Shown here: in pieces, positions 8,263 to 32,303 of the stretch
Layout of the letters: every line of letters begins with the position of its first letter
How positions within the stretch are numbered: the stretch's first letter is position 1
Source: an uncultured Verrucomicrobiota bacterium
GTDB lineage: Bacteria > Verrucomicrobiota > Verrucomicrobiia > Verrucomicrobiales > Akkermansiaceae
Length of the DNA: 34,641 nucleotides
Direction of reading: 5' to 3'
NCBI GenBank assembly: GCA_937867415.1
Contig: CALMKO010000028.1
Location: forward strand, 1 to 34,641
Made by a program: the position numbers and the translations under genes
The notes under the pieces: model-generated
Database searches by the model: none
What the model was told of the DNA's origin: nothing
What the model saw: only the letters and a program-made list of their open reading frames with translations

Positions 8263-8296
8263 ATTCATCGGTCCGGCCACACCTATATCCACTGCC

Positions 8297-10351: not shown

Positions 10352-10402
10352 CCCCGTTCCACCCCGTTTAAATCCGCCGTGAAATCCACCATCCTGCATC
10401 CC

Positions 10403-12154
10403 ATGATGAAATCCCATCGCAAAACCGCTCTGATCGCTGGCATCTCCGGCCTTCTTGTCTCCCTTGGCCAGGCAGCCCCCACCTTCGCGCCATCCGCGGG
10501 CTGGGCTCTCGACAAGGCTCCGGCCGTTCCGCCGCCCGCCGCGCCTAACAGCAAGAACCCCGCGGATCCCGCCTCATTCCCGGAAGCCAAAATGGACTTC
10601 AAGATCGCACCCGGCCCCTTCGAGCCGACATGGGAATCCATCAAAAACAACTACCCCGGCACACCGCAATGGTTCAACAACGCGAAGTTCGGTGTCTTCG
10701 TCCATTGGGGACCGCAGGCATCCGGGCGCAGTGGCGACTGGTATGCCCGCAAACTTTACCGCGAAGGCGAAGGACCTGCCAACAACCACCGCCAGAACTT
10801 CGGCCACCCTTCCGAATTCGGCTACAAGGACGTGCTAAATGCCTGGAAAGCCCCGAAGTGGGATGCCGCAAAACTCACGGAAGCGTTTCACGACGCGGGC
10901 ATGCGCTTCATGATGGTCGTCGGCGTCCATCATGACAACTACGACCTCTGGGACTCGACATACAACCCTTGGAATTCCGTCAACGTCGGACCCAAAAAGG
11001 ACATGATCGGCGAGTGGTCGAAGGAAGCGAAAAAACGCGACATGCGCTTCTGCATCACCTTCCACCATGAATACAGTTGGTGGTGGTGGGCGGATGCCTA
11101 CCGCGCCGACCGCAACGGCCCCAAAGCCGGCATCCCCTACGACGGCAACCTCACCCTCGCCGACGGCAAGGGAAAATGGTGGGAGGGACTCGATCCCAGA
11201 TTGTTATATAATATCAACCTCGGCGAATACACCGATGGAACCGGCAAGTCGGTCACCGAGATCGCCTTCGGACAAAAGGGCATATTCCAGGATCACCAGG
11301 ACTATGCCAAATGGTATGCGGAACGCTGGGCACTCCGCATCATGGACGCCATCGACAAGTATGATCCGGACATGTTCTATACCGACGGCAATGGCCCGGA
11401 ACCCTTCTGCGGCACCCTGAGCGGTTCCGGTTTCAAGTGCGACGCCGGCCGCCGCGTGGTCGCCCATTACTATAACCGCTCACTCGCCAAACATGGCAAG
11501 GTGGACACCCTCGCGCTCATCAAGTTCCAGGCCGGGAATCCTGCCGTAGGCATGACTTATGAAGTGAACGTGCCAGACAGGATCCTGAGCGGTCAGCCAT
11601 GGATCGGTGAGAACCCGATCGGCGATTGGTATTACGGCCCCGGTTACACATACAACGCGGTGAACCTGGTCCGTAGCTTGTTAGAGTATGCCTCGCGTGG
11701 CGGAAACTACGCCTGCGCCGTGCCGGTGGACCCGGAAGGTGGCATGGAACCGGAATGCGTCGCAATGCTCAAGGACATGGGCGAGTGGATGCGCGTGAAC
11801 GGCGAGGGAATCTACGGCAGCCAAGCCTGGGACAAGTGGGGCGAGGGCTCGGTGGTGATGCCGAACGGACCGCTCAGCCAACATCAGGTCAATACGCCAT
11901 ACACCGCAGCTGACATCCGCTTCACCCAAAAAGGCGATGACCTCTACGCCTGGCTCATGGCCTGGCCAGCCGATGGCAAAGTGCTCATCCGCTCGCTGCC
12001 GGAAGGCTCCGGTGAAATCTCAGACATCAAACTGCTCGGCAGCAGCGCGAAACTCACCTGGCGCCAAACCAGCGAAGGACTTGAAGTCAAACTCCCCTCA
12101 CAAGCACTTGGCAAGTTCGCCCACGGGCTTAAGCTCTCCCGAGCCAAGCCATGA
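10403..12154 (+). CDS. Alpha-L-fucosidase, GH29 (tandem paralogue)
   Basis: A second GH29 enzyme, 583 residues from ATG 10403. An in-frame GTG at 10379 would add 8 residues; I prefer 10403 or 10406 because the product then begins with a compact signal peptide (MMKSHRKTALIAG). Motifs: KFGVFVHWGPQASG, VHHDNYDLWDS and DPDMFYTDGNGPEPF, with predicted nucleophile D328 counting from 10403. It is clearly homologous to the previous product (shared NFGHPSEFGY, DVLNAWKAP, PWNSVNVGPK, KWWEGLDP) but has diverged after the barrel and has a shorter C-terminal sandwich, so the pair may act on different fucosyl linkages. The stop overlaps the next start by ATGA (12151-12154), which suggests translational coupling to the GH95 gene. 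Confidence 0.9.
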   Translation: MMKSHRKTALIAGISGLLVSLGQAAPTFAPSAGWALDKAPAVPPPAAPNSKNPADPASFPEAKMDFKIAPGPFEPTWESIKNNYPGTPQWFNNAKFGVFVHWGPQASGRSGDWYARKLYREGEGPANNHRQNFGHPSEFGYKDVLNAWKAPKWDAAKLTEAFHDAGMRFMMVVGVHHDNYDLWDSTYNPWNSVNVGPKKDMIGEWSKEAKKRDMRFCITFHHEYSWWWWADAYRADRNGPKAGIPYDGNLTLADGKGKWWEGLDPRLLYNINLGEYTDGTGKSVTEIAFGQKGIFQDHQDYAKWYAERWALRIMDAIDKYDPDMFYTDGNGPEPFCGTLSGSGFKCDAGRRVVAHYYNRSLAKHGKVDTLALIKFQAGNPAVGMTYEVNVPDRILSGQPWIGENPIGDWYYGPGYTYNAVNLVRSLLEYASRGGNYACAVPVDPEGGMEPECVAMLKDMGEWMRVNGEGIYGSQAWDKWGEGSVVMPNGPLSQHQVNTPYTAADIRFTQKGDDLYAWLMAWPADGKVLIRSLPEGSGEISDIKLLGSSAKLTWRQTSEGLEVKLPSQALGKFAHGLKLSRAKP

Positions 12155-13200
12155 AATCACCCTTCTTATCCCTATCTCGATTCCTTTCCCTAGGTTCCCT
12201 TTTCGTCATCCCATGGTCAGCAGCCTACGGCGCGCAGCCTACCGGGAATCCCCAGACCCTATGGTTCGACGAACCCGCGCGCGATTGGAACGGAGCCTTG
12301 CCTTTGGGCAACGCGCATCTCGGCGCCATGGTTCACGGCGACCCTGCCAAGGAAGTGATCCAGCTCAATGAATCCACCTTCTGGGCCGGCTATCCGCACG
12401 ATTATGTAAAACCGGGCGCGGCAAAGCATTTGCCAGAAATCCGCCGCTTGTTGTTCGAAGGCAAGGAAGGCGACGCTACCAACCTCGCCAACGCCCACTT
12501 CATGGGCGATCCACCGTTTTTGGCAGCCTATCAACCGCTCGGGCACCTCCGCCTCGAAAATGCCCTGCCAGACCAAACCACAAAATACCGCCGCGAACTC
12601 GATCTGCGCACGGGCGTGGCCAAGGTCTCATTCCAGTCCGCGGATGTCACCTACACCCGGGAGTATTTCATTTCCCATCCGGATCGTGTCATGGTCATCC
12701 GTTTCACCGCCTCCGCACCGGGCAGCATTTCCTTCACCGCAGGCATGGATTCCGATTACCCGCACCGGACCGAAAGCGGGGCTGGCGGAAGCTTGGTGAT
12801 GAACGGCCAGTGGCATGAGGATGGCAAACCGAAGGACTGGATCGCGAAATGGGACAAACCCGGCATGAAGTTTTCCTGTGGCCTGCAAGCCATCCACGAC
12901 GGTGGACAACTCCAATCCGCGGGAGACAAACTCCGCGTTGAAAAAGCCAATTCCGTCACCCTTGTGATGGGCGCAGGCACCAGCTTCCGCAACTTCCGCG
13001 ACATCTCCGGAGATCCCTCGTCCGAATGGCCGGGCAAGGTGAAGGCCGCCAAAGCTGCCGGCCATCAAATACTGTTAGAAAAACATCTGGCGGACTTCCA
13101 GGGGAAGATGGACCGCGTGAAACTCGACCTTGGCGGCGCGGAAGCGGACGTCAAACCGGTCAATCAACGAATCGGACGCCGTCAAGGCCGGTGCCGATGA
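12151..13200 (+). CDS. GH95 N-terminal part (upstream of the frameshift)
   Basis: A 349-residue fragment with a signal peptide ([20 protein letters not shown]...). It covers the N-terminal beta-sandwich of GH95, with [20 protein letters not shown] and [10 protein letters not shown], typical of the family. Its last ten or so residues (GRRQGRCR) are out-of-frame reading after the extra G at 13174-13175. The ATG overlaps the stop of the preceding GH29 gene. Alone it would have no active site. Confidence 0.8.
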
Positions 13201-14563
13201 TCCGGCCCTGGCCGCGCTCTATTTCCAATTCGGCCGCTACCTGTTGCTTTCCTCCAGCCGCCCCGGATCCCAGCCCGCGAACCTTCAGGGAATCTGGAAC
13301 AAGGATACCGTCCCTGCATGGGGCAGCAAATACACCACCAACATCAATCTCCAGATGAACTACTGGCATGCCGAGGTGGCCAATCTATCAGAATGCGGTA
13401 TGCCGGTTTATGAGATGATCGACGATCTCATGCTCACCGGTTCGCGGGTTGCAAAGGAATACTACGGTTGCGACGGATGGACCTTGCACCACAATACCGA
13501 CATCTGGCGCGCGACCACCCCGGTCGATGGGGTGTGGGGTGTCTGGCCGATGGGTGCCGCTTGGCTGGTGCGCCAACCGTGGGAACATTATCTCTTCAGC
13601 GGTGACAAGGATTTCCTCGGCAAACGCGCCTGGCCACAAATGAAAGGCGCTGCGGAATTCATCCTCGATTTCCTGGTAGAAGCCCCGCCCGGCTCCCCCG
13701 TCGCCGGCAAGCTCGTGACCGCGCCATCGCACTCGCCGGAAAACGCCTTCCTCAAACCCGATGGCAGCCGTGGCATGTTCACCTACGCCGCCACCATGGA
13801 TTTGATGATCATCCGGGATTTGTTAGAAAATTGCCTCGCGGCAGCTAGGGATCTTGGCGGCGAATCGTTCGAGCCCGCCTTCCAGCAAAAACTCCGCGAT
13901 ACCCTCGCCCGCCTCGCCCCCGTCCAGATCAGCCCGGAATCCGGCCGGATCCAGGAATGGGTTCGCGACTATCAGGAACCCGAGCCCGGCCACCGCCACA
14001 TGTCGCACCTGTATGCACTGCACCCCGGCAGCCAGATCACCCAGCGCGGCACCCCGGAACTTGCCGCAGCAGCCCGCAAAAGCCTGGAAACACGCCTCGC
14101 CAACGGGGGCGGCGGCACCGGCTGGAGCCGCTGCTGGTTGGTCAGCTTTTTCGCCCGTCTCCACGATGGCAAAGAAGCCCAAAAACACCTCCAACTGCTC
14201 TTTGCCAATTCCACCCTGCCCAACCTTTTCGACAGCTGCCCGCCATTCCAGATCGACGGGAATTTCGGCGGCGCGGCCGGCATCGCCGAAATGCTCCTGC
14301 AATCGCACGATGGCGAAATCGAACTCCTGCCCGCGCTGCCTCCGAATTGGCAGAACGGCTCGATCCACGGTCTGCGCGCCCGCGGCGGCTTCGAAGTCGA
14401 CCTCACCTGGAAAGATGGCCAACTCAGTTCAGTCGGCATCCGCAGCATCAAGGGTGGCAAAAATCAATTGCGCCATGGCAACAAGACGGTTCCGCTGCTC
14501 TTGAAGCCCGGTGAACGCATCCTCCTTGATCGCGAGTTGCATACTGCGAATTCAGGCAACTGA
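13130..14563 (+). CDS. GH95 catalytic part (downstream of the frameshift)
   Basis: The continuation of the GH95 gene in the +1 frame: the (alpha/alpha)6 barrel and C-terminal domain. The nominal start near 13130 is a TTG inside out-of-frame sequence; authentic coding begins at about 13175 ([10 protein letters not shown]). Motifs present are [38 protein letters not shown] and QIDGNFGG. Without the upstream half the fragment lacks both a signal peptide and the N-terminal sandwich, so it would not be a working exported enzyme by itself. Confidence 0.8.
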
Positions 14564-14683: not shown

Positions 14684-16603
14684 ATGACGACACACCTTCC
14701 ATTTTTCGCAATCACCTTGATCGCGAGCATTCCACTCACCACATCCGCTGCGGAGTCGGTGACGCTCACCAGCCCTGACCAACGCATCAGCACCAAGGTT
14801 TCCATTCGCGACAAGGAACTCTTCTATCAACTCCAGCTCAGCGGTAAGACCCTGCTCGAAGACTCCCGTCTCGGCGTCACCGTCGATGGCGTGGACCTCG
14901 GTGCGGGCGTGAAGGAAATCAAGCTCGGTGAAACCACCAGCCATCAGGAAGAATACCGTCTCAACGGCGATGAAAGCCTGCTCAAAAGCCATGACAAGCG
15001 GGTTACCATCACCGCCGAGCGTGACGGCGAGCCACTCGTCATCGAACTCCGCGCCTTCAATCAAGGACTCGGCTTCCGCTATATCGTCCCGGGCGATACC
15101 ACACGCAGGATATCCGGTGAAGCCACCTCTTGGAAATTGCCCGCGCAAACCAAAGTCTGGTCCCGCACCAACACCCACGGGGATTACTCGGACCGGGCTG
15201 CAAGTGCAAACACCGGCACCTTGCCCGTCGGCAAGGAAGTCGTCGGACCGCTGTTAGGTGAACTCCCGGGTGGCCACGGCTACGTCGGCATTACCGAAGC
15301 GGCCCCATGGAACTACTCCGGACTCAGCTTCAAGTTCAACTCTGCGGAAAACATCGCTTCACAATTCAAATATGACGCCGAGTGGACCATGAACGGAGGA
15401 TCGCCCACCCCATGGCGCGTGGTAATGGTCGGCAGCGACCTCCACTCCGTGATGCAAGGCCGCCAGCTCGTCACCCATCTCTCCCCCGCCCCGGATCCGC
15501 AACTCTATCCACAAGGATCACAGACCTCCTGGATCCAACCCGGCCGCTCGGCCTGGAGCTGGCTCGACCCCCACGCCCGCGCACGCGGCGGCGTCACCGT
15601 GGACCACCAGAAGCGCTTCATCGACATGGCCGCCGAACTCGACTTTGAATACAACACGGTCGATGATGGTTGGGAAATGTGGCCGGACAAATGGAAGACC
15701 CTCGCCGATCTCGCTGCCTACGCGAAATCAAAAAATGTGAAACTCATCGCTTGGAAGGACACTGCCGATGGCGATCGCGTCCCGGATCCCGCCGACAACT
15801 ACAGCAACCTTCGTAGTTTCCTCGACAAGTGCCGCGATGCTGGCCTCGCCGGAATCAAGATCGACTTCCTCCACGGCAATCCACTCATCGGCGAGGGCAC
15901 CAAAACCTTGAGTTATATGCCAGTCGTCTATCGCATGTGTGCCGAGCGCCGATTGATGGTGAATTTCCATGGCGCGGTCAAACCTACCGGCCAGGCCCGC
16001 ACCTGGCCGAACGCGATCACCCAGGAACCCGTGCTTGGCATGGAAGCCGGTGCCGCTCCGGCAGATGCCACCGTCGTCGCCTTCCTCTGCGGCCTGTCAG
16101 GATACTGCGATTACACCCCCGGACTCTTCGCACAGGGCGAGAACCCGGAACTGCGTGGCAAGTCCACCTGGGCGCATCAACTTGCACTGGGCGTGGTATA
16201 TTGCTCGCCGATGCAGCACTGGGCAAGCGGCCCCGAACTCACCGCGGCCGCGTTTCCTCAAGACTCACTGCAACGCGCCGTCTATCAATCCATTCCTCCG
16301 ACGTGGGATGAAACCATCGTTCTATCAGCAAGCAAACCCGGCAGCATCGCCGCCTTCGCACGCCGCAAGGGTAAGGATTGGTTTGTCGGAATCATCAACG
16401 GCAACGAGAATGAAGCGGTGATGATCGAAAAACTCGAACTACCATTCCTCGGCACCAAGAATCACGCGAGCGTGTGGGTTGCCGATGGCACGAAACCCGA
16501 CGAATTCCGGACCGGCAAATCCTCCGGAGCAAATTCCAACAAACCACTCACCGTCAAACTCGCTCCTAGCGGCGGCTTTGTCGCGATGTTCCGGGCCGAG
16601 TGA
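14684..16603 (+). CDS. GH97 alpha-galactosidase/alpha-glucosidase
   Basis: A 639-residue exported GH97 enzyme. The signal peptide MTTHLPFFAITLIASIPLTT precedes the N-terminal super-sandwich (about 25-275), a TIM barrel (about 280-540) and a C-terminal sandwich. Hallmarks: NTVDDGWEMW, NVKLIAWKDT, AGIKIDF, VNFHGAVKPTG and ITQEPVLGMEAG. GH97 contains inverting alpha-glucosidases, which use two glutamates as base, and retaining alpha-galactosidases, which use an aspartate nucleophile in the GxKxDF strand (family knowledge). D394 in GIKIDF and E448 in TQEPV therefore favour a retaining alpha-galactosidase; this is inference. A purine-rich AAGAGAG lies 10 nt before the ATG, one of the few Shine-Dalgarno-like sites here. 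The next gene begins 29 bp downstream. Confidence 0.9.
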   Translation: MTTHLPFFAITLIASIPLTTSAAESVTLTSPDQRISTKVSIRDKELFYQLQLSGKTLLEDSRLGVTVDGVDLGAGVKEIKLGETTSHQEEYRLNGDESLLKSHDKRVTITAERDGEPLVIELRAFNQGLGFRYIVPGDTTRRISGEATSWKLPAQTKVWSRTNTHGDYSDRAASANTGTLPVGKEVVGPLLGELPGGHGYVGITEAAPWNYSGLSFKFNSAENIASQFKYDAEWTMNGGSPTPWRVVMVGSDLHSVMQGRQLVTHLSPAPDPQLYPQGSQTSWIQPGRSAWSWLDPHARARGGVTVDHQKRFIDMAAELDFEYNTVDDGWEMWPDKWKTLADLAAYAKSKNVKLIAWKDTADGDRVPDPADNYSNLRSFLDKCRDAGLAGIKIDFLHGNPLIGEGTKTLSYMPVVYRMCAERRLMVNFHGAVKPTGQARTWPNAITQEPVLGMEAGAAPADATVVAFLCGLSGYCDYTPGLFAQGENPELRGKSTWAHQLALGVVYCSPMQHWASGPELTAAAFPQDSLQRAVYQSIPPTWDETIVLSASKPGSIAAFARRKGKDWFVGIINGNENEAVMIEKLELPFLGTKNHASVWVADGTKPDEFRTGKSSGANSNKPLTVKLAPSGGFVAMFRAE

Positions 16604-16632
16604 ACAGCCCTAACAACATCTCACCTTTTATC

Positions 16633-19600
16633 ATGCGATCCTTCAGCAGCCTCTTATCATTCCTGCTCTCCACCTTGCTTCCCGCAAGCGCCGATCCCGA
16701 GGCCGTGTTCCGCAATCCTCCGGAATCTGCAAAACCCGGTGTCTGGTGGCATTGGATGGGCTCGAATGTCAGCAAGGAGGGCATCACTCGGGATTTGGAA
16801 GAGTTCAAGAAAGCTGGCATCAGCGGCGCGACGATTTTCGGCATGGCCGATGTCTGCACCCCCTGGGCGGGCCACATCGAGAACTCACCCAACGACGGCC
16901 TGTTAGCCTTCACGGATCCTTGGTGGAAACTCGTCCGCCACGCGGCGGCGGAGGGGCAGCGCTTGGGTGTCGATGTCGGCTTGCACAATTGCCCGGGCTA
17001 CACCAGCACCGGCGGCCCGTGGATCACGCCGGAGTTGTCGATGCAGGAAATTTTCCAATCTCAAACGATCGTCGATGGCGGCTCCACCTTCCGCGGCGTC
17101 TTGCCAAGACCCGCCGTGGATCCCCGGGGCAACATGCTTTTCCCGATGGTCAACAAACAGATCGGCGTGCTCGAGAAACCGATCATTGATGGCCGGAACA
17201 CCTACTGGCGGGATATCGCCGTGCTGGCGACCCCGGCGGAAGGGGTGATCGCCAAGGAACAAATCATCAACCTGACCGCTAAGATGGCCGCGGACGGAAG
17301 ACTCGAATGGACGCCCCCTGCCGGCAAATGGGTCATCTATCGGTTCGGCCACACGACCATGGGCGCGCTGACCCAGCCGAACCAGTGGGAGATCATGGGC
17401 TTGGAATGCGATAAGATGAGCGAAAAGGCCGTCGAATTCCACCTCAGCCATGTGATCGGAAAACTCAAGGAACACCTCGGACCACTGGTGGGAACCGGCT
17501 TGCAGCACATTTTGTTAGATAGTTATGAGGCAGGCACGCCATCGTGGACTCCGCGGATGCCCGAAGAGTTCTCCACCCGCCGTGGTTATGATATCACCGC
17601 ATTTTTACCGACATTCGCCGGGCGCGTGGTTGGCAATGATGGCGCGACCCACCAGTTCCGCGCGGACTTCGGCCGCACCATCGCGGATCTCTACCGCGAT
17701 GTGCTTTTCGTCACGATGGCAAGGATGCTGGAAAAGGAAAACCTGCGTTTCGTTTGCGAACCGTATGGAGGACCGTTCCAGACTGGCGAGGTTTCTCCAC
17801 ACGTCCACCGCGTGATGACCGAGTTCTGGTCCGGCGATGCGTATTCGCCCCATGGCATGGATGGCATCTTCAACGCAGCGGGCGGAAAACGTCACAACAT
17901 CCTGGAAGCGGAGGCCTTCACCGGGAGCCCCGGCCGGAGCCCATGGATCGAGACACCTGCCGCACTCAAGCAAGCCGGCGACGGCGCATTCTGTGCAGGC
18001 ATCAATCGCTTCATCCTGCACACCAATCCCCACCAGCCATGGAATGACAAGATCCGCCCGGGCATGACGATGGGTCAGTGGGGCACCCACTTCGGCCGCA
18101 CCCAGACGTGGTGGGAACCGGGCAAGGCATGGCTCGCGTATCTCGCTCGCTGCCAAGCGCTCTTGCAGTGGGGAAACCCCGCACCGGCTCCTGGTATCTC
18201 GGGAGTGAATGCCACCGGATTAAAAATCCAAGGCATCCATCGCAGCGATGGCCCATCCCATGTGTTTTTCATCGCCAACACCAGCCAAGGCACGGGCTCC
18301 GCCGTCTGCACCTTCCAAGTCGCAGGGATGACTCCGGAGTTATGGGATCCCGTCACCGCCACGATGCGCCCTCTAACCGATTTCCAGGTTTCCGAAACCA
18401 CCACCCGTCTCACGCTCGACTTTGCCCCCGCCCAAAGCTGCTTCGTGGTCTTTCGCAAGACAGGTGCAAAACCCGAACCCACCCGCCGAAATTCTCCAAC
18501 ACATCAGGAAGCCGCCGTCATCTCTGGCACATGGCAAGTAAGCTTCGATCCCGCTTGGGGCGGACCTGAGAAAGCAGTCGAGTTCACGAAGTTGGACGAC
18601 TGGACATCGCGCCCCGAGCCCGGCATCCGTTACTACAGCGGCACCGCCGTTTACCGGACCCTCTTCGATGTCCCGCAAACGGGAAAGGCGGCGTCATTTC
18701 TCGAACTCGGCACCGTTCACCATCTCGCACGGGTCCGCCTGAATGGGCAGGACCTCGGCGTCGTATGGTGCGCTCCATGGGGCGTGGATCTCCCCCCCGG
18801 CCTGCTGAAACCCAAAGGCAACCGCCTCGAAATCGCCGTCACCAATGTCTGGGCCAACCGTCTGATCGGCGACGAACAGGAAGCGCCGGATTGCGAATGG
18901 CAGCCCGGCCACATGGGCCACGGCGGCTACCTGAAGCGCTTCCCCGATTGGTTCGTAAATGGCCGGAACCGCCCTTCGTCCAAACGCTACACCTTCACCA
19001 CATGGAACTATTTCAACCGCGACTCGAAACCAGTTTCCTCCGGCTTGTTAGGTCCGGTGCGAGTGATGGCGGCGGACTGGAAACAGGAACAATCCGCACT
19101 CGCCGGGGTTCTTGTCGCCGAGTCGTTCGCCAATGCCTCCTCCGAGGATGCCTTCGAGGCGGACATCCCGCCGGCCGAGCGCCTGTTGACCATCGCCACG
19201 GTCTCCGAAACCGGCACGATGGAGGCAAGTGGCGGCAGCACCGATGCCGACGCCATCCGCAACGGCACCACGCGCAACGGCTCCAACTCCGCAGCCTCTG
19301 CCGACGATGGCAAAACCTTCCGCGCCTACGGCCAAGGGAATAGTCTCTTGTTCCGGCTCGATCTCTCCAAAAATCCCGGCGGCCTTCCACTCGAAGAAAT
19401 CCGCAGCTTCGCAGGTCATGCTGACAGCCGTGCCAGCCAAGCCTACAGCATTTGGATCACCAAGGCGGACAAACCAGACGATTGGATACGAATCGGCGAT
19501 GCCACCGTCACCGCCAGCAATGGGGCGACCCAACTCCGCGTCCCGGTCAAGGCCCAAGGAGTCTCCGCCGTTCGACTCGACTTCGCCAACAGCCCTGTAG

Positions 19601-19647
19601 GCTTCAATGTTTACCGCGAAATTTCGCTCATCCGGGGTACGCCATGA
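16633..19647 (+). CDS. GH106-type alpha-L-rhamnosidase with C-terminal discoidin-like domain
   Basis: A 1004-residue exported protein. The frame is open to a GTG at 16600 that would overlap GH97, but ATG 16633 gives a clean signal peptide (MRSFSSLLSFLLSTLLPASA) and is preferred. GH106-like motifs: GVWWHWMGSNVSKEGITRDL, KAGISGATIFG, LLDSYEAGTPSWTP (E299) and FVCEPYGGPF (E376). A beta-sandwich follows with ARVRLNGQDLGVVWCAPW, typical of the accessory domain in this family. About residues 835-1004 form an extra galactose-binding/discoidin-like domain (TGTMEASGG, GFNVYREISLI) that standard GH106 proteins lack. GH106 enzymes remove terminal alpha-L-rhamnose, including from pectic rhamnogalacturonans (family knowledge). 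Which glutamates act as acid and base is not settled by inspection. Confidence 0.82.
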   Translation: MRSFSSLLSFLLSTLLPASADPEAVFRNPPESAKPGVWWHWMGSNVSKEGITRDLEEFKKAGISGATIFGMADVCTPWAGHIENSPNDGLLAFTDPWWKLVRHAAAEGQRLGVDVGLHNCPGYTSTGGPWITPELSMQEIFQSQTIVDGGSTFRGVLPRPAVDPRGNMLFPMVNKQIGVLEKPIIDGRNTYWRDIAVLATPAEGVIAKEQIINLTAKMAADGRLEWTPPAGKWVIYRFGHTTMGALTQPNQWEIMGLECDKMSEKAVEFHLSHVIGKLKEHLGPLVGTGLQHILLDSYEAGTPSWTPRMPEEFSTRRGYDITAFLPTFAGRVVGNDGATHQFRADFGRTIADLYRDVLFVTMARMLEKENLRFVCEPYGGPFQTGEVSPHVHRVMTEFWSGDAYSPHGMDGIFNAAGGKRHNILEAEAFTGSPGRSPWIETPAALKQAGDGAFCAGINRFILHTNPHQPWNDKIRPGMTMGQWGTHFGRTQTWWEPGKAWLAYLARCQALLQWGNPAPAPGISGVNATGLKIQGIHRSDGPSHVFFIANTSQGTGSAVCTFQVAGMTPELWDPVTATMRPLTDFQVSETTTRLTLDFAPAQSCFVVFRKTGAKPEPTRRNSPTHQEAAVISGTWQVSFDPAWGGPEKAVEFTKLDDWTSRPEPGIRYYSGTAVYRTLFDVPQTGKAASFLELGTVHHLARVRLNGQDLGVVWCAPWGVDLPPGLLKPKGNRLEIAVTNVWANRLIGDEQEAPDCEWQPGHMGHGGYLKRFPDWFVNGRNRPSSKRYTFTTWNYFNRDSKPVSSGLLGPVRVMAADWKQEQSALAGVLVAESFANASSEDAFEADIPPAERLLTIATVSETGTMEASGGSTDADAIRNGTTRNGSNSAASADDGKTFRAYGQGNSLLFRLDLSKNPGGLPLEEIRSFAGHADSRASQAYSIWITKADKPDDWIRIGDATVTASNGATQLRVPVKAQGVSAVRLDFANSPVGFNVYREISLIRGTP

Positions 19648-19660
19648 CTCCAACATTTTT

Positions 19661-20626
19661 GTGAAAACCGCACTCATCCCTTCGATCACCGCCGCCCTCT
19701 GTGCGTTGCCACTGGCCTCCGCACAACTGGCTCTCAAGGAAGTCCCGCAGCAATCGCTCGCCCTGGAAAAGGACGGCAAACTCGTCTGGCAGTTCAACTT
19801 CGGCAAAGAAGATCCCAAGCCATTCTTCCACCCGCTCCGCACCTTGGATGGACATGATCTCACCTGGCTGCGGCCCGACGATCACCCATGGCATCTCGGG
19901 CTTTGGTTTTCCTGGAAATATATCAATGGCAAAAACTACTGGGAGAGCGACCGGACGACGGGAAAATCCGAGGGCGTCACCGAAGTCACCCATTCCAAGG
20001 TCACGAAGAACGCCGATTCATCCGCCGAAGTGAAACTGCGGATCTCCTATCACCTTCCGGATGCGCCGGAAGTCCTCGGTGAACTGCGCACCCTCCACAT
20101 CTCGCCGCCCGACGCCAGCGGTGCCTATCGCATCGATTTCAATCACACCTTCACCGCCGCCAGCGAGAAAGTCGTGCTCGACCGCACGCCCCCACAATCC
20201 GCCGGCGGCCCGGCCTGGGGTGGATACGCCGGTCTCGCATTCCGTTCCGCCGCCACCATGACCGACCGCGTGGCGCTGGACTCCAACGGCTTCACCCACA
20301 GCGGCCCGATCATGGGCTCCGGCAAAACCGCCAACTGGATGGACCTCAGCGGCACCGTGGACGAGACCACCAAGACCACGGCTGGCGTGACAATCTTCGA
20401 GCATCCCGCAAGCTTCCGCCACCCTACCCCGTGGTATCTTTATTTCGACGGGAAATTCGGCGCGATCAAATCCGGCCCGATTTACGCCGAACCCATCACC
20501 CTTGAGGCCGGAAAATCCTTCCAATTGGCATACCGCGTCTTTATCCACCCCGGCATCGGCGGGGCCACCGCGCTCAACGCCGAATACCAGCGCTATGGCG
20601 GGACTGCCAAACCTCGCTCCAAATAG
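19661..20626 (+). CDS. DUF6807 (PmoA-like) family secreted protein
   Basis: A 321-residue protein starting at GTG 19661, chosen because it gives a signal peptide (MKTALIPSITAALCALPLAS) and lies 13 bp after the previous stop; the frame is open further upstream to 19607. Family marks: FHPLRTLDGHDLTWLRPDDHP, then HLGLWFSWKYINGKNYWE, and later FEHPASFRHPTPWYLY. Databases often call this family 'methane oxygenase PmoA', but nothing here relates to particulate methane monooxygenase: there are no membrane helices and the neighbours are glycosidases. The His/Asp-rich DDHPWH segment could be a metal or catalytic site. Position between two rhamnosidases suggests a carbohydrate role, perhaps a hydrolase or lyase for an unusual sugar; this is inference and the function is unknown. 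Confidence 0.8.
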   Translation: MKTALIPSITAALCALPLASAQLALKEVPQQSLALEKDGKLVWQFNFGKEDPKPFFHPLRTLDGHDLTWLRPDDHPWHLGLWFSWKYINGKNYWESDRTTGKSEGVTEVTHSKVTKNADSSAEVKLRISYHLPDAPEVLGELRTLHISPPDASGAYRIDFNHTFTAASEKVVLDRTPPQSAGGPAWGGYAGLAFRSAATMTDRVALDSNGFTHSGPIMGSGKTANWMDLSGTVDETTKTTAGVTIFEHPASFRHPTPWYLYFDGKFGAIKSGPIYAEPITLEAGKSFQLAYRVFIHPGIGGATALNAEYQRYGGTAKPRSK

Positions 20627-20672: not shown

Positions 20673-23480
20673 ATGATTCTAACTTCCCGATTGACCCGCA
20701 AGATCAAGCATCTCCTCGGCTGCCTCACCATGGCTTGCGCCATCACCGGAGCCGCGCCAACAGCCCGTGCCGAAAGCCCGTCCACCGAACCATGGCAGGC
20801 CCGCTGGCTGCTTCCTCCGGCCACGCCGGAAGTCTCGCTCGATGGCGCATCGTGGATCTGGGCGGACGAACCGGGCGTGAACCCGACCACCAACGCGCCC
20901 GCCGGGAAACGCAGCTTCCACGCCACACTCGACCTCCCGCCGGAAGCCACCATCACCCGCGCCACCGGAAAGATCGCCGCAGACAACCGCTTCAGCCTCA
21001 CCATCAACGGGACCGCCGCAGGAAGCGGTGACTCATGGCAGCACCCGGCCAACGTCGAGATCTCAAAACTCCTGCGCCCTGGCCGCAACGCGATTGTCAT
21101 CCACGCGGAAAACGACCCTGCGCAAGGCGCCATCAACGCCGCCGGACTGATCGCCCGCTTCCAAGTGCTGCTCAAGGACCATCCACCCGTCATCCTCGAG
21201 ACCAATGCCGCATGGACAGGTGGAACGGACGCGCACGCCGCCTCGGGCCTGCCACCGGTCAAGGTGATCGGACCGCGCGGCACCGCCCCATGGACCGCCG
21301 TGGCACCGAACGCATCCGGCCCTTCCCAGAACCTCTGGACCTGCTGGAGAAAATCCTTCGAACTCGCCGAGATCCCCACCAGCGCACCCACCCGCATCGC
21401 CGTGGATTCCAAATACTGGCTGTGGGTAAATGGCCGACTGATCATCCGCGAAGGCGCGGTAAAACGCGGCCCGAACCCGGAAGACACCTACTATGACTGG
21501 ATCGATCTCGCTCCGCATCTAACAAAAGGCAAAAACCAGATCGCCGTGCTCGCCTGGTTCTTCGGAAAAGAGGGATTCTCCCACAAAAACAGCGGCAAGC
21601 CCGGCTTCTTGTTCGAGATGCAGGCAGGCGCAACCCACATCCTCTCCGACACTTCCTGGAAGACCCTCCGCCATCCGGCATTCGGGCAAGCATCCAACAC
21701 CCCCAACTTCCGCCTCGCGGAAAGCTCCGTCCGCTTCGATGCCCGCGAGGACATTTCCACCTGGGTCCGACCCGGCTTCGATGACTCCGCCTGGAGCGCG
21801 CCCGCCGATGCCGGCGCGCCACCCGCCGCGCCGTGGAACCGCCTGTGGCGGCGCAGCATCCCGCAGTGGAAAGACTTCGGCCTCAAGAGTTATACCAATG
21901 CCACCGAGTTGCCGAAATCCGGTGGTCGCACCGCAATCACGGCCCGCCTCCCCTACAACGCGCAAATCACACCCTGGCTCAAAGTCTCCGCACCTGCCGG
22001 ACTGATGATCCGCATCCGCACCGACAACCCAGCCAATGAAATCTTCGCGGAATACATCACCCGCGAGGGCGAGCAGGAATTCGAAACTCCCGCATGGATG
22101 AGCGGTCACGCCGTCATTTATGAAATCCCCGAAAACGTCCGCATCCTCGGCCTGCAATATCGGGAAAGCGGGTTCGACACGGAACTCACCGGCAGCTTCC
22201 AATCCGACAACGAGTTCCTCAACAAGCTATGGGAAAAATGCGAACGCACGCTTTATATCAACATGCGCGACACCTTCTTCGACTGCCCGGACCGCGAGCG
22301 CGCCGCCTGGTGGGGTGACATCGTGATCCAACTCGCCCAGGTCTTCCACACCTATGATACCCAAAGCCATTCGCTCATTCGCAAGTGCATGTATAATCTC
22401 GCCAACTGGCAGCGCCCGAGCAAAACCTTCTTCTCTCCCATCCCCGCCGGTAATTGGGACAAGGAACTTCCCCAGCAAATGCTCGCAAGCATCGGCCAGT
22501 ATGGCTTCTGGACCTACTATCTCTATACCGGCGACAAAAAAGCCATCACGGATCTCTATCCAAATGTCGTGGCCTATCTATCCATTTGGCAGACCGATGC
22601 GGACGGACTCATCGTCCATCGCTCCGGAGAAAACGGCTGGGACTGGGCGGACTGGGGCGATCATGTGGACATCCGCATGCTCGACCAGGCCTGGTTCTGC
22701 CTCGCCCTCGAAGGTGCCGCCCGCATGGCCGATGAGTTGGGAAAACCCGACGAAGCAGCTGGCTTCCGCAAACAACGTGAAGCCCTCATCACCGCCGCCA
22801 ATACCAAGTTCTGGAATGGCAGCGCCTACCACGATCCCGCCTACAAGGGACCCACCGATGACCGCGCCCAAGGTATGGCTGTGGTCTCCGGCATCGCGGA
22901 CCGCAACAAATTCCCCGCCATCAAGACCGTGCTCGCCAATACCAACCACGCCAGCCCTTACATCGAAAAGTATATCTTGGAATCGCTCTATCTGATGGGA
23001 GAACCCGAAGCCGCGTTCGAACGCCTCCAAAGACGCTACAAGGAAATGGTCGAAAGCGAAACCAGCACACTCTGGGAATTGTTCACCCGGGATGGCACGC
23101 TCAACCACGCCTGGACCGGCGGCCCGCTTACGCTTATGCATCAATACATGGCCGGCATCACCCCGACATCGCCCGCATTCGCCACCTATCAAGTCAAACC
23201 CCAACCCGGCGACTTGCAACGGGTCAATATTTCCATCCCCACGGTGAAGGGCGATCTCAAAGCAGCCATCCTGCGGAAAGCCGGCCGCTTCAACTTCAAG
23301 CTGATCGCACCGGCAGGCACCCAAGGCACGATCCACCTGCCCGTCAAAGGACCCATCACCCTCAATGGCAAACCCGCATCCACCGTCGCAGGGGCCACCC
23401 ACCGAGGATCCATCGCAGGTCACGAGGTTTATGAAGTCGGCCCAGGCGAATGGACTTTCTCCGCTGCGGAGACCCCATAG
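20673..23480 (+). CDS. GH78 alpha-L-rhamnosidase
   Basis: A 935-residue exported enzyme. A TTG at 20643 is in frame, but ATG 20673 gives MILTSRLTRKIKHLLGCLTM plus AITGAAPTARA as a signal peptide and is preferred. N-terminal beta-sandwiches (about 30-430) include YWLWVNGRLIIREGAVKRGP. The (alpha/alpha)6 barrel has RDTFFDCPDRERAAWWGD (E542), GENGWDWADWGDH and STLWELF (E802), followed by NHAWTGGPLTLMHQYMAGI and YQVKPQPG, the standard GH78 ending. E542 and E802 are the best candidates for acid and base by family analogy. GH78 inverts and releases alpha-L-rhamnose. It is the last closely packed gene of the row; a 306-bp gap holding a decayed domain follows in the same frame. Confidence 0.9.
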   Translation: MILTSRLTRKIKHLLGCLTMACAITGAAPTARAESPSTEPWQARWLLPPATPEVSLDGASWIWADEPGVNPTTNAPAGKRSFHATLDLPPEATITRATGKIAADNRFSLTINGTAAGSGDSWQHPANVEISKLLRPGRNAIVIHAENDPAQGAINAAGLIARFQVLLKDHPPVILETNAAWTGGTDAHAASGLPPVKVIGPRGTAPWTAVAPNASGPSQNLWTCWRKSFELAEIPTSAPTRIAVDSKYWLWVNGRLIIREGAVKRGPNPEDTYYDWIDLAPHLTKGKNQIAVLAWFFGKEGFSHKNSGKPGFLFEMQAGATHILSDTSWKTLRHPAFGQASNTPNFRLAESSVRFDAREDISTWVRPGFDDSAWSAPADAGAPPAAPWNRLWRRSIPQWKDFGLKSYTNATELPKSGGRTAITARLPYNAQITPWLKVSAPAGLMIRIRTDNPANEIFAEYITREGEQEFETPAWMSGHAVIYEIPENVRILGLQYRESGFDTELTGSFQSDNEFLNKLWEKCERTLYINMRDTFFDCPDRERAAWWGDIVIQLAQVFHTYDTQSHSLIRKCMYNLANWQRPSKTFFSPIPAGNWDKELPQQMLASIGQYGFWTYYLYTGDKKAITDLYPNVVAYLSIWQTDADGLIVHRSGENGWDWADWGDHVDIRMLDQAWFCLALEGAARMADELGKPDEAAGFRKQREALITAANTKFWNGSAYHDPAYKGPTDDRAQGMAVVSGIADRNKFPAIKTVLANTNHASPYIEKYILESLYLMGEPEAAFERLQRRYKEMVESETSTLWELFTRDGTLNHAWTGGPLTLMHQYMAGITPTSPAFATYQVKPQPGDLQRVNISIPTVKGDLKAAILRKAGRFNFKLIAPAGTQGTIHLPVKGPITLNGKPASTVAGATHRGSIAGHEVYEVGPGEWTFSAAETP

Positions 23481-23519: not shown

Positions 23520-23777
23520 TCAGCCAATCCTGACGGCTGGGCAGGTCACCTCCTCGCATTCGCCGCCGGCCAGAATCCGAATGCTACCACAGGCACCGTA
23601 ACCACACCTGAAACAACCAGCACCGGGCTCGAATTCATCTCCATCCGCGGCAAGGCGGCCGTGCAGGATAAGTTTGCATTTGAACCCCAATTCAGCGACT
23701 CTCTCACCCCGACATGGTTCTCTGCTGGACTCGGTGAAGTAATCGCCGATGATGGTAATCTCCAAGCCATATTCCCC
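23520..23777 (+). pseudogene. Decayed C-terminal domain remnant
   Basis: Within the 306-bp gap after GH78, the frame shared by GH78 and the downstream lyase stays open and reads ANPDGWAGHLLAFAAGQNPN ... FISIRGKAAVQDKFAFEP ... FSAGLGEVIADDGNLQ. This matches the layout of the C-terminal domain ending the lyase (ADPDGDGLANLLEFALFLNP ... MEYTYTRARS ... VERSDSL): an acidic loop, an LLxFAxGxNPN helix, a strand, then DDGxLQ. The calcium-like loop is damaged (DGW instead of DGD) and the final FxRLxV strand is missing. No start codon or signal peptide precedes it. I read it as the leftover end of a lost gene. Confidence 0.6.
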
Positions 23778-23786
23778 CATAAACCC

Positions 23787-26700
23787 ATGCTTTCCTCGAT
23801 CCAGAAAATAGCTCTTCTGGCGTGCCTCGCCCTGAGTTCATCCCTACTTCCCGCAAACGCACAGCGGCAGGTGGAAACCCTCGGTCGCGGCTTGATCGCC
23901 TTGCGCTCATCCAGCACCCAGGTCCATGTGAGTTGGCGGCTTCTGGGCCATGAACCCGCCGATCGCGCCTTCAACTTGTATCGCTCCACGAACGGCGGCG
24001 CACCCGTCAAGTTGAATGCCTCGCCGATCGTTCAGACCACCGATTTCCTGGACAGCTCCGGCTCCACTCTGCTCGCCAGCGCGAATTCCTATTTCGTCAG
24101 ACCCATCATCAACGCGGTGGAGGGAAGCGCCAGCACCGGATTCACCCTGCCGGCCAACGCACCGGTCCGCCAATACCTCACCATCCCGAAAGTGCCGGTC
24201 GGCGCCAACCAATACGGGCTCAGCCAAACCTATCCCGCCGATGTCGATGGCGATGGTGAGTTCGAACTGATCTGCCGGCTCGATTTCCTCGGCAGCGGCA
24301 CCGCGCCTCTCGGGCGTTTTGCTTTCGATTGTTACAAACTCGATGGCACCCATCTCTGGCGGGTCCTGAGCGGGCCCAATCTCCTCGCCAGCAACGACGG
24401 CGATGGTTACCTCAACGCGGCGGACTACGACGGCGACGGCAAGGCGGAAGTCGCCATCCGCACCACCGCCGGCACCGTATTCCCGAACGGCGTCACCATC
24501 ACCGACACCAGCAGCCAGGAGTTTCTCTCCATCGTCAACGGCATGACCGGCGTGGAAATGGCGCGCATCCCCTTCAAGCCGGCGCTCGGCCCGGATTATT
24601 TTACCTATTGGGGGGCAAACATGCGGCCTTTCTATATGTATATGGCCACCGCTTTTCTCGATGGCGTCCACCCGAGTCTCATCACCTGCCGTGGCATCGG
24701 CGGCAACCGCCTGCACGTCCATGCCTGGGATTTCAAAAACGGTGCCATCACCGAGCGCTGGAGCTGGATTGCAAACTCCACGGAATACATGGCCACCGGC
24801 CACAACATGCTCGTTTATGATCTCGATAACGATCAGAAGGACGAGATCGTCTTCATCGGCGGTGCCCTCGACGACAACGGCCAATTCCTCTACTCCACCG
24901 GACTCGGCCACGGGGATCACATTCGCTTCGCCGATCTCGATCCGGACCGCCCGGGCTTCGAGTGTTACGCCATCCAGCAGGACGCGGCTCTCGGCGCTCT
25001 CATCTATGACGGATCCACCGGCCGGGCGATCCGCAAGTGGTATCTCGATACTCCAGGCGACCCCAGCCGCGGCGATGCCGGTGACGTGGACCCCAATTTC
25101 CGCGGCGCGGAGGTGTGGTCGATCATGCCGAACATCTGGAGCGCCAAGGGCGAGCTGATCGGAGACAAATCGATCTTCCCCGCACGCGGCATCTGGTGGG
25201 ACCGCGATTTGCAACGGGAAATCTTCAGCGGCGCGGGCAGCGGGCAGATGGCGCCCGTGATCAACAAGATCAACGCCGATCACAATGAAACCCGGCTTTA
25301 CTCCATCTACAACGAAGGCGTGACCCAAGGTTTCGGCGGTTTCCCACCCTTCTCCGGCGATCTGTTAGGCGACTGGCGCGAGGAGGTCGTGCTGGATTCC
25401 AGCGACCGCACGCAGATCCGCGTTTACGCCACCAGGATCCCTGCGGAAAACCGTTTCTACACTCTCATGCACAACCCGGCCTATCGTGTGGGGGCCACCT
25501 GCAAGGGACGCACCGGCGCCATGTCGCCCGACTACTATCTCGGCACCGGCATGGAAGCGGTCCCGCCACCACCGATCGTCGATTCCGATCTCGTTTGGAA
25601 AGGCGGACTTGCCTCGAATGCCTGGGACGTCAACAGCACCTCGAATTGGAAAAAGAACACCGCAACCTTGAGATACCTCCAAGGCCAGAGCGTGTTGTTC
25701 GACCTCACGGGAAACACCGCCGCCCCCGTCCAGTTGGGCAACACGCTCACGCCTTCTGCAGTGACCGTGCATTCGCCGCTTCCCTATACCTTCAGCGGCG
25801 CGGGCGTGCTCTCCGGCACCATGCCACTGGTCAAGGCGGGCGCTGGTAGCCTGACCGTAAATGGCAGCCATCCCTTCTCCGGCCCGACCACCGTCTGGGA
25901 CGGCGCGTTGCTCGTGAATGGCAAACTCACCCAAAGCCCGGTGACCGTGCGCGGTGGCACCTGGGGCGGCGCACTCGCCGGTGGCCACACTGGCGGTCGC
26001 ATCGGCGGATCCGGCGAGTTCGGCAACGGCGTCACCCTGGAATACGGCGCAGCCATCACCCCCGGCAATGGCATGGGCGCGGCGGGAACCCTTACGATCC
26101 AAGGCACGCTCACCCAGCGCGATGGCGCGGTGAACGCCTTCGATCTATCAAACGATCCCTCCGGCACCACCCAAGCGAACGACCGGATTCAGATCACGGG
26201 AAATCTCAACCTGTCCGGCAGCAGCACGATTTTCATCAAGCGCCTGAACGCCTCGCTCGCCCCCGGCACCTACACCCTCATCACCTACAGCGGTTCGCTG
26301 ACCGGCAGCCTAGCAAATCTCAAGCTCGCCGGCCTACCCGGAGTGCCCGCCACCCTCGCCAATCCGCCCGGGGCCATCACTCTCGTCGTGCCCAACCTCC
26401 GCGCCGCTTCCAGCCTCACTTGGACCGGCAGCGCAAACAGCGATTGGGACCTCGCCCAATCGAACAACTGGCTGCGCGCCGGAAATCCCGATACCTTCGT
26501 CCCGGGCGACGCCGTCACCTTCAACGACAGCGGCGCGGCCAGCCCTTCCGTCAATCTGAGCACCTTCCTCAACCCGGCATCCATCACCGTCAACAGCACC
26601 TCAAACTACACCCTCGGCGGACCGGGCCGCATCATCGGCAGCGGCAACCTCACCAAAAGCGGCAGCGGCACCCTCACCATCCTCACCGCCAACGAGTTCA

Positions 26701-29700
26701 CCGGCATCACCCACATCCAAGGCGGGGTGCTGGAAGTGGCCACACTCGCCGAAGCGGGCGAAGCAAGTCCCATCGGTGCAGCAGGCGTCAGCCCGAGCAA
26801 TCTCCTCCTCGACTCCTGCACCCTGCGCATGCTCGACCAAGGTGGCGGCTTCACCAACCGCGGCGCAACCTTCGGCGCGGGCGGCGTCACGCTGGAGGTC
26901 GTCGGAACCAGAAGCGGCATGACCATCGGCGGCACGGTGACCGGTCCCGGGCGACTGACCAAAACCGGCCCGGGCACCCTGCAATTCACCCGCGCGAACA
27001 ACTACACCGGCGGCACCGTGATCGCAGGCGGCACGATCTCGCTCGGCAGCTCCGCCGCCAATGCCAACGGACTCGGCAGCGGACCGGTCACCTTTCAAAA
27101 CGGCACGCTGACCATGGCCAATATCGAAAGCTCCGCCAACGCTTCGTGGAACATGATCGTGCCCGCAGGCTTTTCCGGCCTCCTCAATGCGGACGGCCGT
27201 TGCTCGTTGCGCGGAAACCTAACAGGCAGCGGCAATTTTACGGTTTCCGGGCCCTACGTGCGCACGGACTTCTTCGGCGATTGGTCGCAATTCACAGGAA
27301 ACATCCAGATGCGCGGCGACATCCGTATTGCCAACACCTTCGGCTACGGCGCTGCGGCGGTGAACCTCGATGATGCCAATCTCTACGGCATCATCACCGT
27401 GCCCGCCGCCGGAATCCGCCTCGATCTCGGCGAGCTTTCAGGCACCCCCGCCGCCCGCCTGCGCGGCGCGGCCACCGCGACGAACGTGCTCACCTGGCGC
27501 GTCGGCGGACGAAATACGGACGCCACTTTCGCGGGCAACATCGGCGAGCAAAACACCAGCTCCGTCACCGCCATTCAAAAAGTCGGCACCGGCACCTGGA
27601 CCTTGGCGGGCATCAACACCCACCGCGGAGCCACCACGGTGAGCGCGGGCAAGCTCATCCTCACCGGATCCATCACCGGCAGCAACCTGACGGTGCAATC
27701 CGCCGCCACCCTCGAAAACCGTGGCACGATCACCGGCAACGTGACCATCGAAACCGGCGGCACGCTCACTCCGGCCGGCGTGATCATCGGCAATCTCACC
27801 AACTACGGAACCGTCCGCGTCACCGGCAGCGACGTCCTATCCGTCAGCGGCACCTTCACCAACTACGGCACGCTCGACCTCGGCACCTGGGGCGGCACGC
27901 TGCCGGCGAATTTCATCAATCAAGGCACCATCATCAGCGCGCCGCTGCCCGCCGTCGCCATCACCAGCCCGGCGGCCGACCCGGTTTCCATCGCTGGAAT
28001 CTCATCCCGGCTGGAACTCACCGGATCCGTCGTCGGTGCCAACGTGCACGAGTGGTCGATGGTTTCCGGCCCCGCCAGCGTGAGCTTCAGCGATGCCGCA
28101 GCGCTGCAAACAAGCGCCGGATTCTCCGCACCGGGAGTCTATGTGTTGGAGCTGGCCGCGACAAACAACAGCGGAACGGCCATCGCCCGGCGCAGCGTGC
28201 TGATAGGCCCTGCCCCCACCTACACCTTCCGCGAAGGGGAAAACAACTACTCGCACACCTGCGCCATGATTCGCGAGGACACCCCGTCCTGGAACTCCGG
28301 CGCGCGTGATCAATTCCTCATCGGCCGCACCACTTCACGCCTCCGCGCGGTGTTCGCATTCCCGCTCCCCGCCAGCCTGCCAGCCAACGCGGTCTCCTCC
28401 GTCTCGCTCGATCTCTCCACCGCCGCCGCCGGCACCGTGGGCGATCTCCAATTGCACAGTCTCCTCGCGATTCCCACCGAAGGCAGCGGCAGCAGTTCCA
28501 CCGACTCCACCAACGGCGCGGGCACCGGCGTCACCTGGTCCCGCCGCACGGATTCCACCGGGAATCTCAACTGGACCACCGCCGGCGCTGACTTCCATGC
28601 CACCGTGCTTTCCACCATCCCCGGCTTCACCGCCGCCGCCGGAAATCAACAGAAAACCTTTCCCTCCTCCGCCGGGTTCGTCGCCTCCGTACAATCCGCC
28701 ATCCACTCCGGGCAGCCCTTGGGATTGTTGATCCATTCTCCCGCCACCGCCACGAACAACCAACTCATGCGCTTCGCCTCGGATGATTTCAGTCTCATTG
28801 CGCAGCGCCCGCTTCTCACCATCAACCTCTCCGGCACCCTGCTACCCGCCGCGGCTCCCGGAAACGCACCCGCTGCCATCGCTGGGGTGGCGGCACCCCT
28901 TGCAGGCAACATCAGCGCAGGTTCGGGCGGCACGCCGGTCGCTTCGTGGAGGCTGGTCAGCGGCCCGGGCAGCGCGACCTTTGAAAACTCGGCCCAAGCA
29001 TCCACCAACGTCACCTTCAGCCGCCCTGGAAACTATCTCCTGCGACTCACCGCCACGGATCCGAATGGCACGACATCGACCGACCTAACAGTCGTCGCGG
29101 CGCCCAACCCGGCACTTCGCCCGGAAGTCATCATCACCAGCCCGTCCATCGATGCCGCCACGCTTGAGAACTCGAACACCACCCTGCATCTAACGGCCAC
29201 CGTCGATTCCACACTTCCTGCCACCATCGCGTGGTCCATGGTCTCCGGACCGGGGGAAATCTCCTTCGGCACCGCCACGGCACCAAGCACCACCGCGAAT
29301 TTCACGGCCAACGGCAGCTACCTGATCGAATGCACCGCCACGAATCAAAACGGCAGCGGCACCGCCCGCCGAACCATCCTCGTTGGCAACGGCCAAATCA
29401 CCTACCGCCAGGGTGAAAACGGCTACTCGCACATCGCCGCCATGATCCGCGGGGACACCACCACCTGGAACTCCGGCACACGCGATCAAATGCTCGTCGG
29501 CAAACTCAGCGGTGGCCAAGGCCTGCGCAGCGTCCTGACGTTCGGCCTGAGTGGCATCCCGGCAGGAACCACCCTCACAAGTGCCACACTCGACCTCTGG
29601 ACCAGCGGCGAGCCAGGACCCGGCACCGTGGACGAACTCGAATTGCGCCCCTTGCTCGGCACGGTGGTCGAAGGCACCGGATCAAGTTCCAGCAACACGA

Positions 29701-31671: not shown

Positions 31672-32262
31672 ATGGAAACCCACTTCGCCAACTCCTTCCA
31701 GATGGTTGAATCGAGCCAGGATTCCTTGCCTCCCCCCCCTCCTGCTTCCGCGGAAATGGAGTCCAAACCCACACTCCGCCAGGTCTTCGAAGCAGAGGAA
31801 TCTCCGCTGCTCCGTTACGCCCAAGGCCTCGTAAGGCAACGCGAAACCGCAGAAGACCTCGTCCAAGACGCCTTCCTCAAGCTCCACGCCCACTGGGATC
31901 ATGTGACCCACCCCCGCGCTTGGTTGTTCCGCTGCACCCGCAACCTCGCCCTCAGCCACCTTCGCGATCATCGCCACGAAGTTCCCATGGATGCCACACA
32001 CGAGTGGGATGCCAACTCTCCTGATCCTGAACACACTCTCGAGAAACTCGAAACCATCGAAATCCTCCAGTTGTTAGTCGCCGAACTCCAGGATGACGAC
32101 CGCATCCTGATCACCCTCAAATACCAAGAAGGCCTGAAATACGACCAAATCAGCCAACGCACCGGCCTCAGCATCAGCAATGTCGGTTACAAACTTCACC
32201 ACGCGCTCAAGCACCTCGCCGACTCCCTCCGCCGACTCGGTGTCGATCAATCAGCTCCCTGA
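31672..32262 (+). CDS. ECF-type RNA polymerase sigma factor
   Basis: A 196-residue sigma-70 family protein of the extracytoplasmic-function class, carrying only regions 2 and 4. Region 2 (about 43-105): LLRYAQGLVRQRETAEDLVQ, DAFLKLHAHW, HPRAWLFRCTRNLALSHLRD, the standard core-binding and -10 recognition helices. Region 4 (about 130-190): LQDDDRILITLKYQEGLKYD then ISQRTGLSISNVGYKLHHAL, a helix-turn-helix for the -35 element. The first 40 residues are low-complexity (SLPPPPPAS), so a downstream ATG (codon 12 or 29) could be the real start. The gene 41 bp downstream encodes a predicted membrane protein, the usual place for the anti-sigma partner. No evidence shows it controls the CAZyme row. Confidence 0.9.
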   Translation: METHFANSFQMVESSQDSLPPPPPASAEMESKPTLRQVFEAEESPLLRYAQGLVRQRETAEDLVQDAFLKLHAHWDHVTHPRAWLFRCTRNLALSHLRDHRHEVPMDATHEWDANSPDPEHTLEKLETIEILQLLVAELQDDDRILITLKYQEGLKYDQISQRTGLSISNVGYKLHHALKHLADSLRRLGVDQSAP

Positions 32263-32303
32263 TCAGGCACACATCTCCCATCTCCTAATTTCCATCTGCT
32301 CCC

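Follow-up and report, generated by a model that had tools for sequence, protein, structure and literature searches.

Among the described systems with which this locus can be compared, the 3-keto-glycoside pathway has a DUF1080 protein that is a 3-ketotrehalose hydrolase, and other DUF1080 proteins have been proposed to act with a lactose 3-dehydrogenase (PMC9007349). For DUF6807 (PF14100), a family formerly named "methane oxygenase PmoA", the literature searched assigned no function and described no assayed protein, an absence that is not in itself proof; a PF14100 gene does share a soil-metagenome operon with the assayed novel beta-galactosidases Lac161_ORF7 and ORF10 (PMC5342196). In work on lake metatranscriptomes, the profile taken for pmoA in scoring methane oxidation genes was PF14100 (PMC10291797). 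The old name is therefore harmful, as genes of sugar loci may be counted as methane monooxygenase and scored as methane oxidation. Here, we analyzed a DUF6807 gene lying between two rhamnosidase genes in a 34,641-nucleotide stretch of DNA (the window) from an uncultured verrucomicrobial bacterium of the Akkermansiaceae.

The DUF6807 gene and the surrounding cluster

The gene was read as a single complete frame without interruption (Table 1). An alternative in-frame ATG lies at position 19607, overlapping the 3' end of the GH106 gene, and a clean signal peptide, MKTALIPSITAALCALPLASA followed by Q, is read from the GTG start. The product matched PF14100 over profile positions 2 to 268 of 270 (E 8.2e-62; score 209.7 bits, where the cut-off is 27). 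It matched no other Pfam family at an E of 0.001 or lower, the DUF1080 profile (PF06439, 3-keto-disaccharide hydrolase) included, and no NCBIfam model at an E of 0.1 or lower, so that no glycosidase or lyase model of either collection was matched. Searches of solved structures by sequence returned no relative, whether the window protein alone or an 86-sequence profile was the query.

Particulate methane monooxygenase subunit A (PmoA) is a multi-span integral membrane protein. That identity was rejected for the window protein, which matched no Pfam family besides DUF6807, let alone a methane-monooxygenase one, and is predicted to be an all-beta exported protein with one N-terminal hydrophobic stretch. 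The preliminary description had called the gene a member of a misnamed DUF6807 family, tightly packed between the two rhamnosidases and encoding a signal peptide and a His/Asp-rich core, and all of this was borne out.

Table 1. Positions of the features in the window
Feature	Position	Strand	Basis
Subtilase, 1499 aa, with P-domain, bacterial Ig and lamin-tail domains, at the cluster head	219-4718		
Three GH29-type alpha-L-fucosidase genes	5005-12154	+	PF01120
GH29-type gene 1, with CE2_N domain	5005-8262	+	PF01120
GH29-type gene 2	8297-10351	+	PF01120
GH29-type gene 3	10379-12154	+	PF01120
GH95, two overlapping frames (12151-13200, 13130-14563)	12151-14563	+	PF14498 + PF22124
GH97	14684-16603	+	PF10566/PF14508/PF14509
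GH106 alpha-L-rhamnosidase, upstream neighbor (13-bp gap)	16600-19647	+	PF17132, E 3.8e-128
DUF6807 gene, 321 aa, GTG start	19661-20626	+	Pfam (PF14100) and reading frame
Predicted signal peptide MKTALIPSITAALCALPLASA, about 21 residues	19661-19723	+	Read from sequence
Motif RPDDHPWHLGLWFSW, residues 71-85, containing D74, H75 and H78	19871-19915	+	Conservation over 168 homologues
E141	20081-20083	+	E in 85% and D in 14% of homologues (99% acidic)
R195	20243-20245	+	Conserved in 99% of 168 homologues
GH78 alpha-L-rhamnosidase, downstream neighbor (46-bp gap)	20673-23480	+	PF17389, E 3.3e-35; PF17390
PL11 rhamnogalacturonan lyase, 2343 aa, with PATR and PKD repeats	23661-30692	+	PF21348, E 3.7e-92; PF18370; PF12951
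ECF-type sigma factor, then 342-aa ORF	31672-33332		
Integrase core (rve) fragment, window end	34106-34528	-	

Every gene between positions 5005 and 30692 is on the plus strand, and the families found there fit the breakdown of a rhamnogalacturonan-type, fucosylated glycan. Genes for Gfo/Idh/MocA, ThuA, DUF1080, or AP_endonuc_2 proteins were not found within the window. GH95 is divided so that one frame encodes its N-terminal domain and the next its catalytic one, an apparent frameshift in either the gene or the assembly. The passenger-associated transport repeats and PKD domains of the PL11 protein suggest a surface-anchored or autotransported lyase. Toward the window end, the 342-aa ORF, which had no Pfam match, is possibly the anti-sigma partner of the ECF-type sigma factor, and the rve fragment may be a mobile-element remnant.

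Conserved residues and predicted fold

We then determined conservation in an alignment of 168 homologues (about 135 effective), in which RPDDHPWHLGLWFSW, the His/Asp-rich core, was the most conserved block of the family. Conservation there was 96% for H75, 91% for H78, 89% for D74, and 88% for P72, and outside the block W94 and H248 reached 98% and 74%, respectively. Both the family assignment, with its full-length Pfam match, and the motif, with its conserved block, lie well outside what chance would give. The near-invariant set of acidic, His, and Arg residues (D74, H75, H78, the acid at 141, and R195) suggests a putative active site, the pattern appearing active-site-like and not structural-shell-like.

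A structure was predicted from the 86-sequence alignment and compared with known folds by Foldseek and VIA-align. The model (pLDDT 91.6, pTM 0.89) consists almost entirely of beta strands and is predicted to be a single-domain galactose-mutarotase-like beta super-sandwich, matching carbohydrate-active proteins of that fold. The top match was a domain of the PL26 rhamnogalacturonan lyase, aligned over 243 residues with an rmsd of 3.2 (Z 19), followed by near-full-length matches to aldose epimerases at Z 16 to 17; beta-galactosidase and alpha-mannosidase domains, OpgD (GH186), and GH174 chains were among the further ones, as was the periplasmic domain of YidC, a non-enzyme. The super-sandwich is common to many non-catalytic domains, and the fold alone gives no function. 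Profile comparisons gave no significant result for either the aldose epimerases or the central sandwich domain of PL26 (hhalign probability, 0.2% in both). GalM catalysis relies on a His and on a C-terminal Glu acting as general base. The region weakly aligned to that His holds no conserved His in the DUF6807 homologues, and in the columns expected for the Glu, which are likewise weakly aligned, the top frequencies were 0.26 for D and 0.15 for E.

Neighbors, fusions, and co-occurring genes

Neighborhoods were compared in a phylum sample of 81 DUF6807 loci, the window included, and in a set of 80 named loci of close homologues from Planctomycetota, Verrucomicrobiota, Lentisphaerota, Bacteroidota, and other groups. 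Members of the family were also seen in the culturable genera Zobellia, Maribacter, and Caulobacter. Genes were called by codon usage with the DUF6807 ORFs fixed, and the immediate same-strand neighbors of DUF6807 were set against the remaining genes of these loci; ThuA domains were trimmed for the family search and DUF6807 fusion parts excluded, while DUF1080 neighbors were counted by Pfam tally. Gfo/Idh/MocA genes made up 22 of the 131 neighbors versus 10 of the 839 other genes in the phylum sample (odds ratio [OR] 16.7, p 3e-13) and 46/132 versus 24/583 among the close homologues (OR 12.5, p 1e-20). The ORs for AP_endonuc_2 in the two sets were 13.6 and 14.2, and those for DUF7133, which in some proteins overlaps the glucose/sorbosone dehydrogenase profile and is often found with cytochrome c, were 4.0 and 5.5. 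The Pfam tallies agreed, giving Gfo/Idh/MocA in 20/107 and 45/120 and 3keto-disac_hyd (DUF1080) in 6/120. A twin-arginine motif was present in 57 of the 70 Gfo/Idh/MocA proteins of the close-homologue loci and an N-terminal hydrophobic, signal-like stretch in 78% of the DUF6807 ORFs there, and the AP_endonuc_2 proteins had no signal-like N termini; DUF6807 and Gfo/Idh/MocA are therefore likely an exported pair with a cytosolic AP_endonuc_2 partner.

Fusions pointed to further partners. Of 186 ORFs, 40 joined ThuA to DUF6807 (examples confirmed by Pfam), with ThuA N-terminal in 34 and C-terminal in 6; that both orders occur speaks strongly for a joint function. DUF6807-DUF7133-HEAT-cytochrome c was found in locus L037, DUF6807-DUF7133-HEAT with plastocyanin in L036, and DUF6807-cytochrome c in L042. 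Large proteins of DUF6807, DUF7133, HEAT, and cytochrome c or plastocyanin were seen in L036, L037, and L039, which suggests that electrons are passed on from sugar oxidation. A nucleoside-hydrolase-like domain (IU_nuc_hydro), DUF6807, and PL11 share one frame in L040 (8354-11962), and in L041 about 2 kb separate PL11 from DUF6807; the window and these two were the only loci with PL11 near or fused to DUF6807.

At the genome level, DUF6807 was found in 68 of the 289 genomes of the phylum, in up to 6 copies. With partner matches counted at E below 1e-20, and with shared ancestry and genome size left uncorrected, DUF1080 was present in 65/68 of the DUF6807 genomes versus 41/221 of the others (OR 95) and GH106 in 45/68 versus 34/221 (OR 10.8). 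The association with DUF1080 held in GH106-positive and GH106-negative genomes alike (OR 24 and 143, respectively), while that with GH106 dropped to an OR of 3.1 (p 0.009) within DUF1080-positive genomes. Partners are available in trans, since the genome to which the window belongs encodes 4 ThuA and about 13 Gfo/Idh/MocA proteins and has at least 11 matches to DUF1080. One of its DUF6807 paralogues adjoins two Gfo/Idh/MocA genes, and another has no obvious partner nearby.

Rhamnosidases turned out not to be the usual partners. Neither GH78 nor GH106 was adjacent to DUF6807 in any of the 80 loci from close homologues; within the phylum sample, four loci had GH78 adjacent (the window, L088, L089, and L091) and two had GH106 (the window and L038). 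The link to GH106 across genomes weakens with DUF1080 fixed. The DUF6807 proteins of L088, L089, and L091 belong to a distant clade, at a tree distance from the window protein of about 3.7 to 4.5, versus 1.5 to 1.8 for its nearest relatives. In L038 (2626-12417), from a genome of the window's family, a tandem pair of DUF6807 genes, encoding 1270 and 500 aa, was observed together with a sulfatase and GH106. The clade of the window protein (support 0.98) is otherwise made up of Bacteroidota and one Bosea homologue, with AP_endonuc_2, DUF1080, DUF7133, and AraC/cupin genes nearby, as well as SusC/D-like and sugar ABC transporter genes recognized by eye only. Among 73 same-genus genomes, 16 had a match at an E of 1e-20 or lower, but the best was 44% identical, and for this reason no clear orthologue was recognized; several of these matches sit in operons of ThuA-DUF6807, AP_endonuc_2, and Gfo/Idh/MocA, none of them with GH78 or GH106 adjacent.

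These observations bear on the reading of DUF6807 as a glycoside hydrolase or polysaccharide lyase of the ordinary, non-oxidative kind, removing a linkage left by GH78, GH106, and PL11. The tight packing into the cluster speaks for it, as do the PL26, GH174, and GH186 chains among the fold relatives, the PL11 fusion in L040, the rhamnosidases next to DUF6807 in L038 and in the distant clade, and the Lac161 beta-galactosidase operon (PMC5342196). We nevertheless consider it unlikely, as rhamnosidase adjacency is rare and missing from the closest homologues, the partners are mostly redox and isomerase-like genes, and sequence similarity to solved enzymes is undetectable. The protein may still carry out an enzyme step not yet described, as put forward in the preliminary description, but the partners (Gfo/Idh/MocA, AP_endonuc_2, ThuA, DUF7133, and DUF1080) favor oxidation-assisted cleavage over a single leftover hydrolase step.

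Proposed function and comparison with known systems

A carbohydrate role for DUF6807, already suspected from the cluster, is supported by the fold, the neighborhoods, the fusions, and the genome co-occurrence. Our preferred, though still tentative, reading makes DUF6807 an exported enzyme with an accessory part in oxidative (3-keto) glycoside cleavage, placed here in a rhamnogalacturonan/fucoside cluster. A Tat-exported Gfo/Idh/MocA dehydrogenase, or in other lineages a DUF7133/cytochrome c oxidase, would oxidize a hydroxyl of the sugar ring; DUF6807, often fused to ThuA, would process the oxidized glycoside or sugar at a site formed by H75, H78, D74, E141, and R195, and DUF1080 and AP_endonuc_2 enzymes would finish the cleavage or rearrangement. 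The window protein, set among secreted GH29, GH95, GH97, GH106, GH78, and PL11 enzymes, would treat rhamnogalacturonan-type fucosylated oligosaccharides and would rely on dehydrogenases encoded elsewhere in the genome. We infer that DUF6807 works as a catalyst, that it takes an oxidized glycoside as substrate, and which bond it acts on. Gfo/Idh/MocA and AP_endonuc_2 are broad families, and the members seen here would presumably make or use 3-keto sugars. The oxidative context itself is borrowed from homologues of about 35 to 49% identity because the window has no partner genes.

Two readings start from the fold. As a mutarotase, DUF6807 would interconvert the anomers of sugars released by glycosidases or of sugars destined for anomer-specific dehydrogenases, in keeping with the near-full-length aldose-1-epimerase matches and with the sugar dehydrogenase-like proteins fused to or adjoining it. 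The insignificant profile comparison, together with the absence of a conserved acid or His where the GalM catalytic residues are expected (a weak residue mapping), makes this quite improbable. A non-catalytic sugar-binding or scaffolding domain, holding the substrate for fused or neighboring enzymes, would agree with the numerous fusions to varied catalytic partners and with the accessory position of the super-sandwich in several structural matches, but it has little chance of being correct, since the near-invariant acid, His, and Arg set and the frequent free-standing, one-domain exported forms better suit an enzyme.

The genomic context narrows a family with no function assigned in the literature searched to a testable chemistry and names its partners, ThuA included. 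A stronger form, which we regard as possible but doubtful, is that DUF6807 represents an unrecognized enzyme class on a mutarotase-like super-sandwich fold. Working with ThuA outside the cytoplasm, it would cleave or rearrange oxidized (3-keto) glycosides and so give Planctomycetota, Verrucomicrobiota, and Bacteroidota an oxidative route to glycans left by ordinary glycosidases.

How far the locus resembles known systems differs from one to the next. Particulate methane monooxygenase PmoA shares with DUF6807 only the old family name. GalM (PF01263) has the super-sandwich in common with the predicted model (Z 16 to 17), but there is neither a Pfam Aldose_epim match nor a profile match between it and DUF6807. 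The central super-sandwich of the PL26 exo-rhamnogalacturonan lyase is the best structural match (Z 19), whereas that enzyme has about 880 aa with extra domains, compared with 321 aa in the window protein, and no profile match. To the 3-keto-glycoside pathway (DUF1080/PF06439, Gfo/Idh/MocA, AP_endonuc_2) DUF6807 is linked by genomic association and co-occurrence; its dehydrogenase and cleavage genes sit beside DUF6807 in homologues but not in the window, and the enzymes named for it do not include DUF6807, DUF1080 being a different protein family (PMC9007349). The operons of ThuA-DUF6807, Gfo/Idh/MocA, and AP_endonuc_2 encode DUF6807 of the same subfamily as the window's, at about 36 to 49% identity, although the window protein differs in having no ThuA domain and no such neighbors. 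With Pfam family PF14100 itself the agreement extends over the full length, and the highly conserved residues are present in the window protein.
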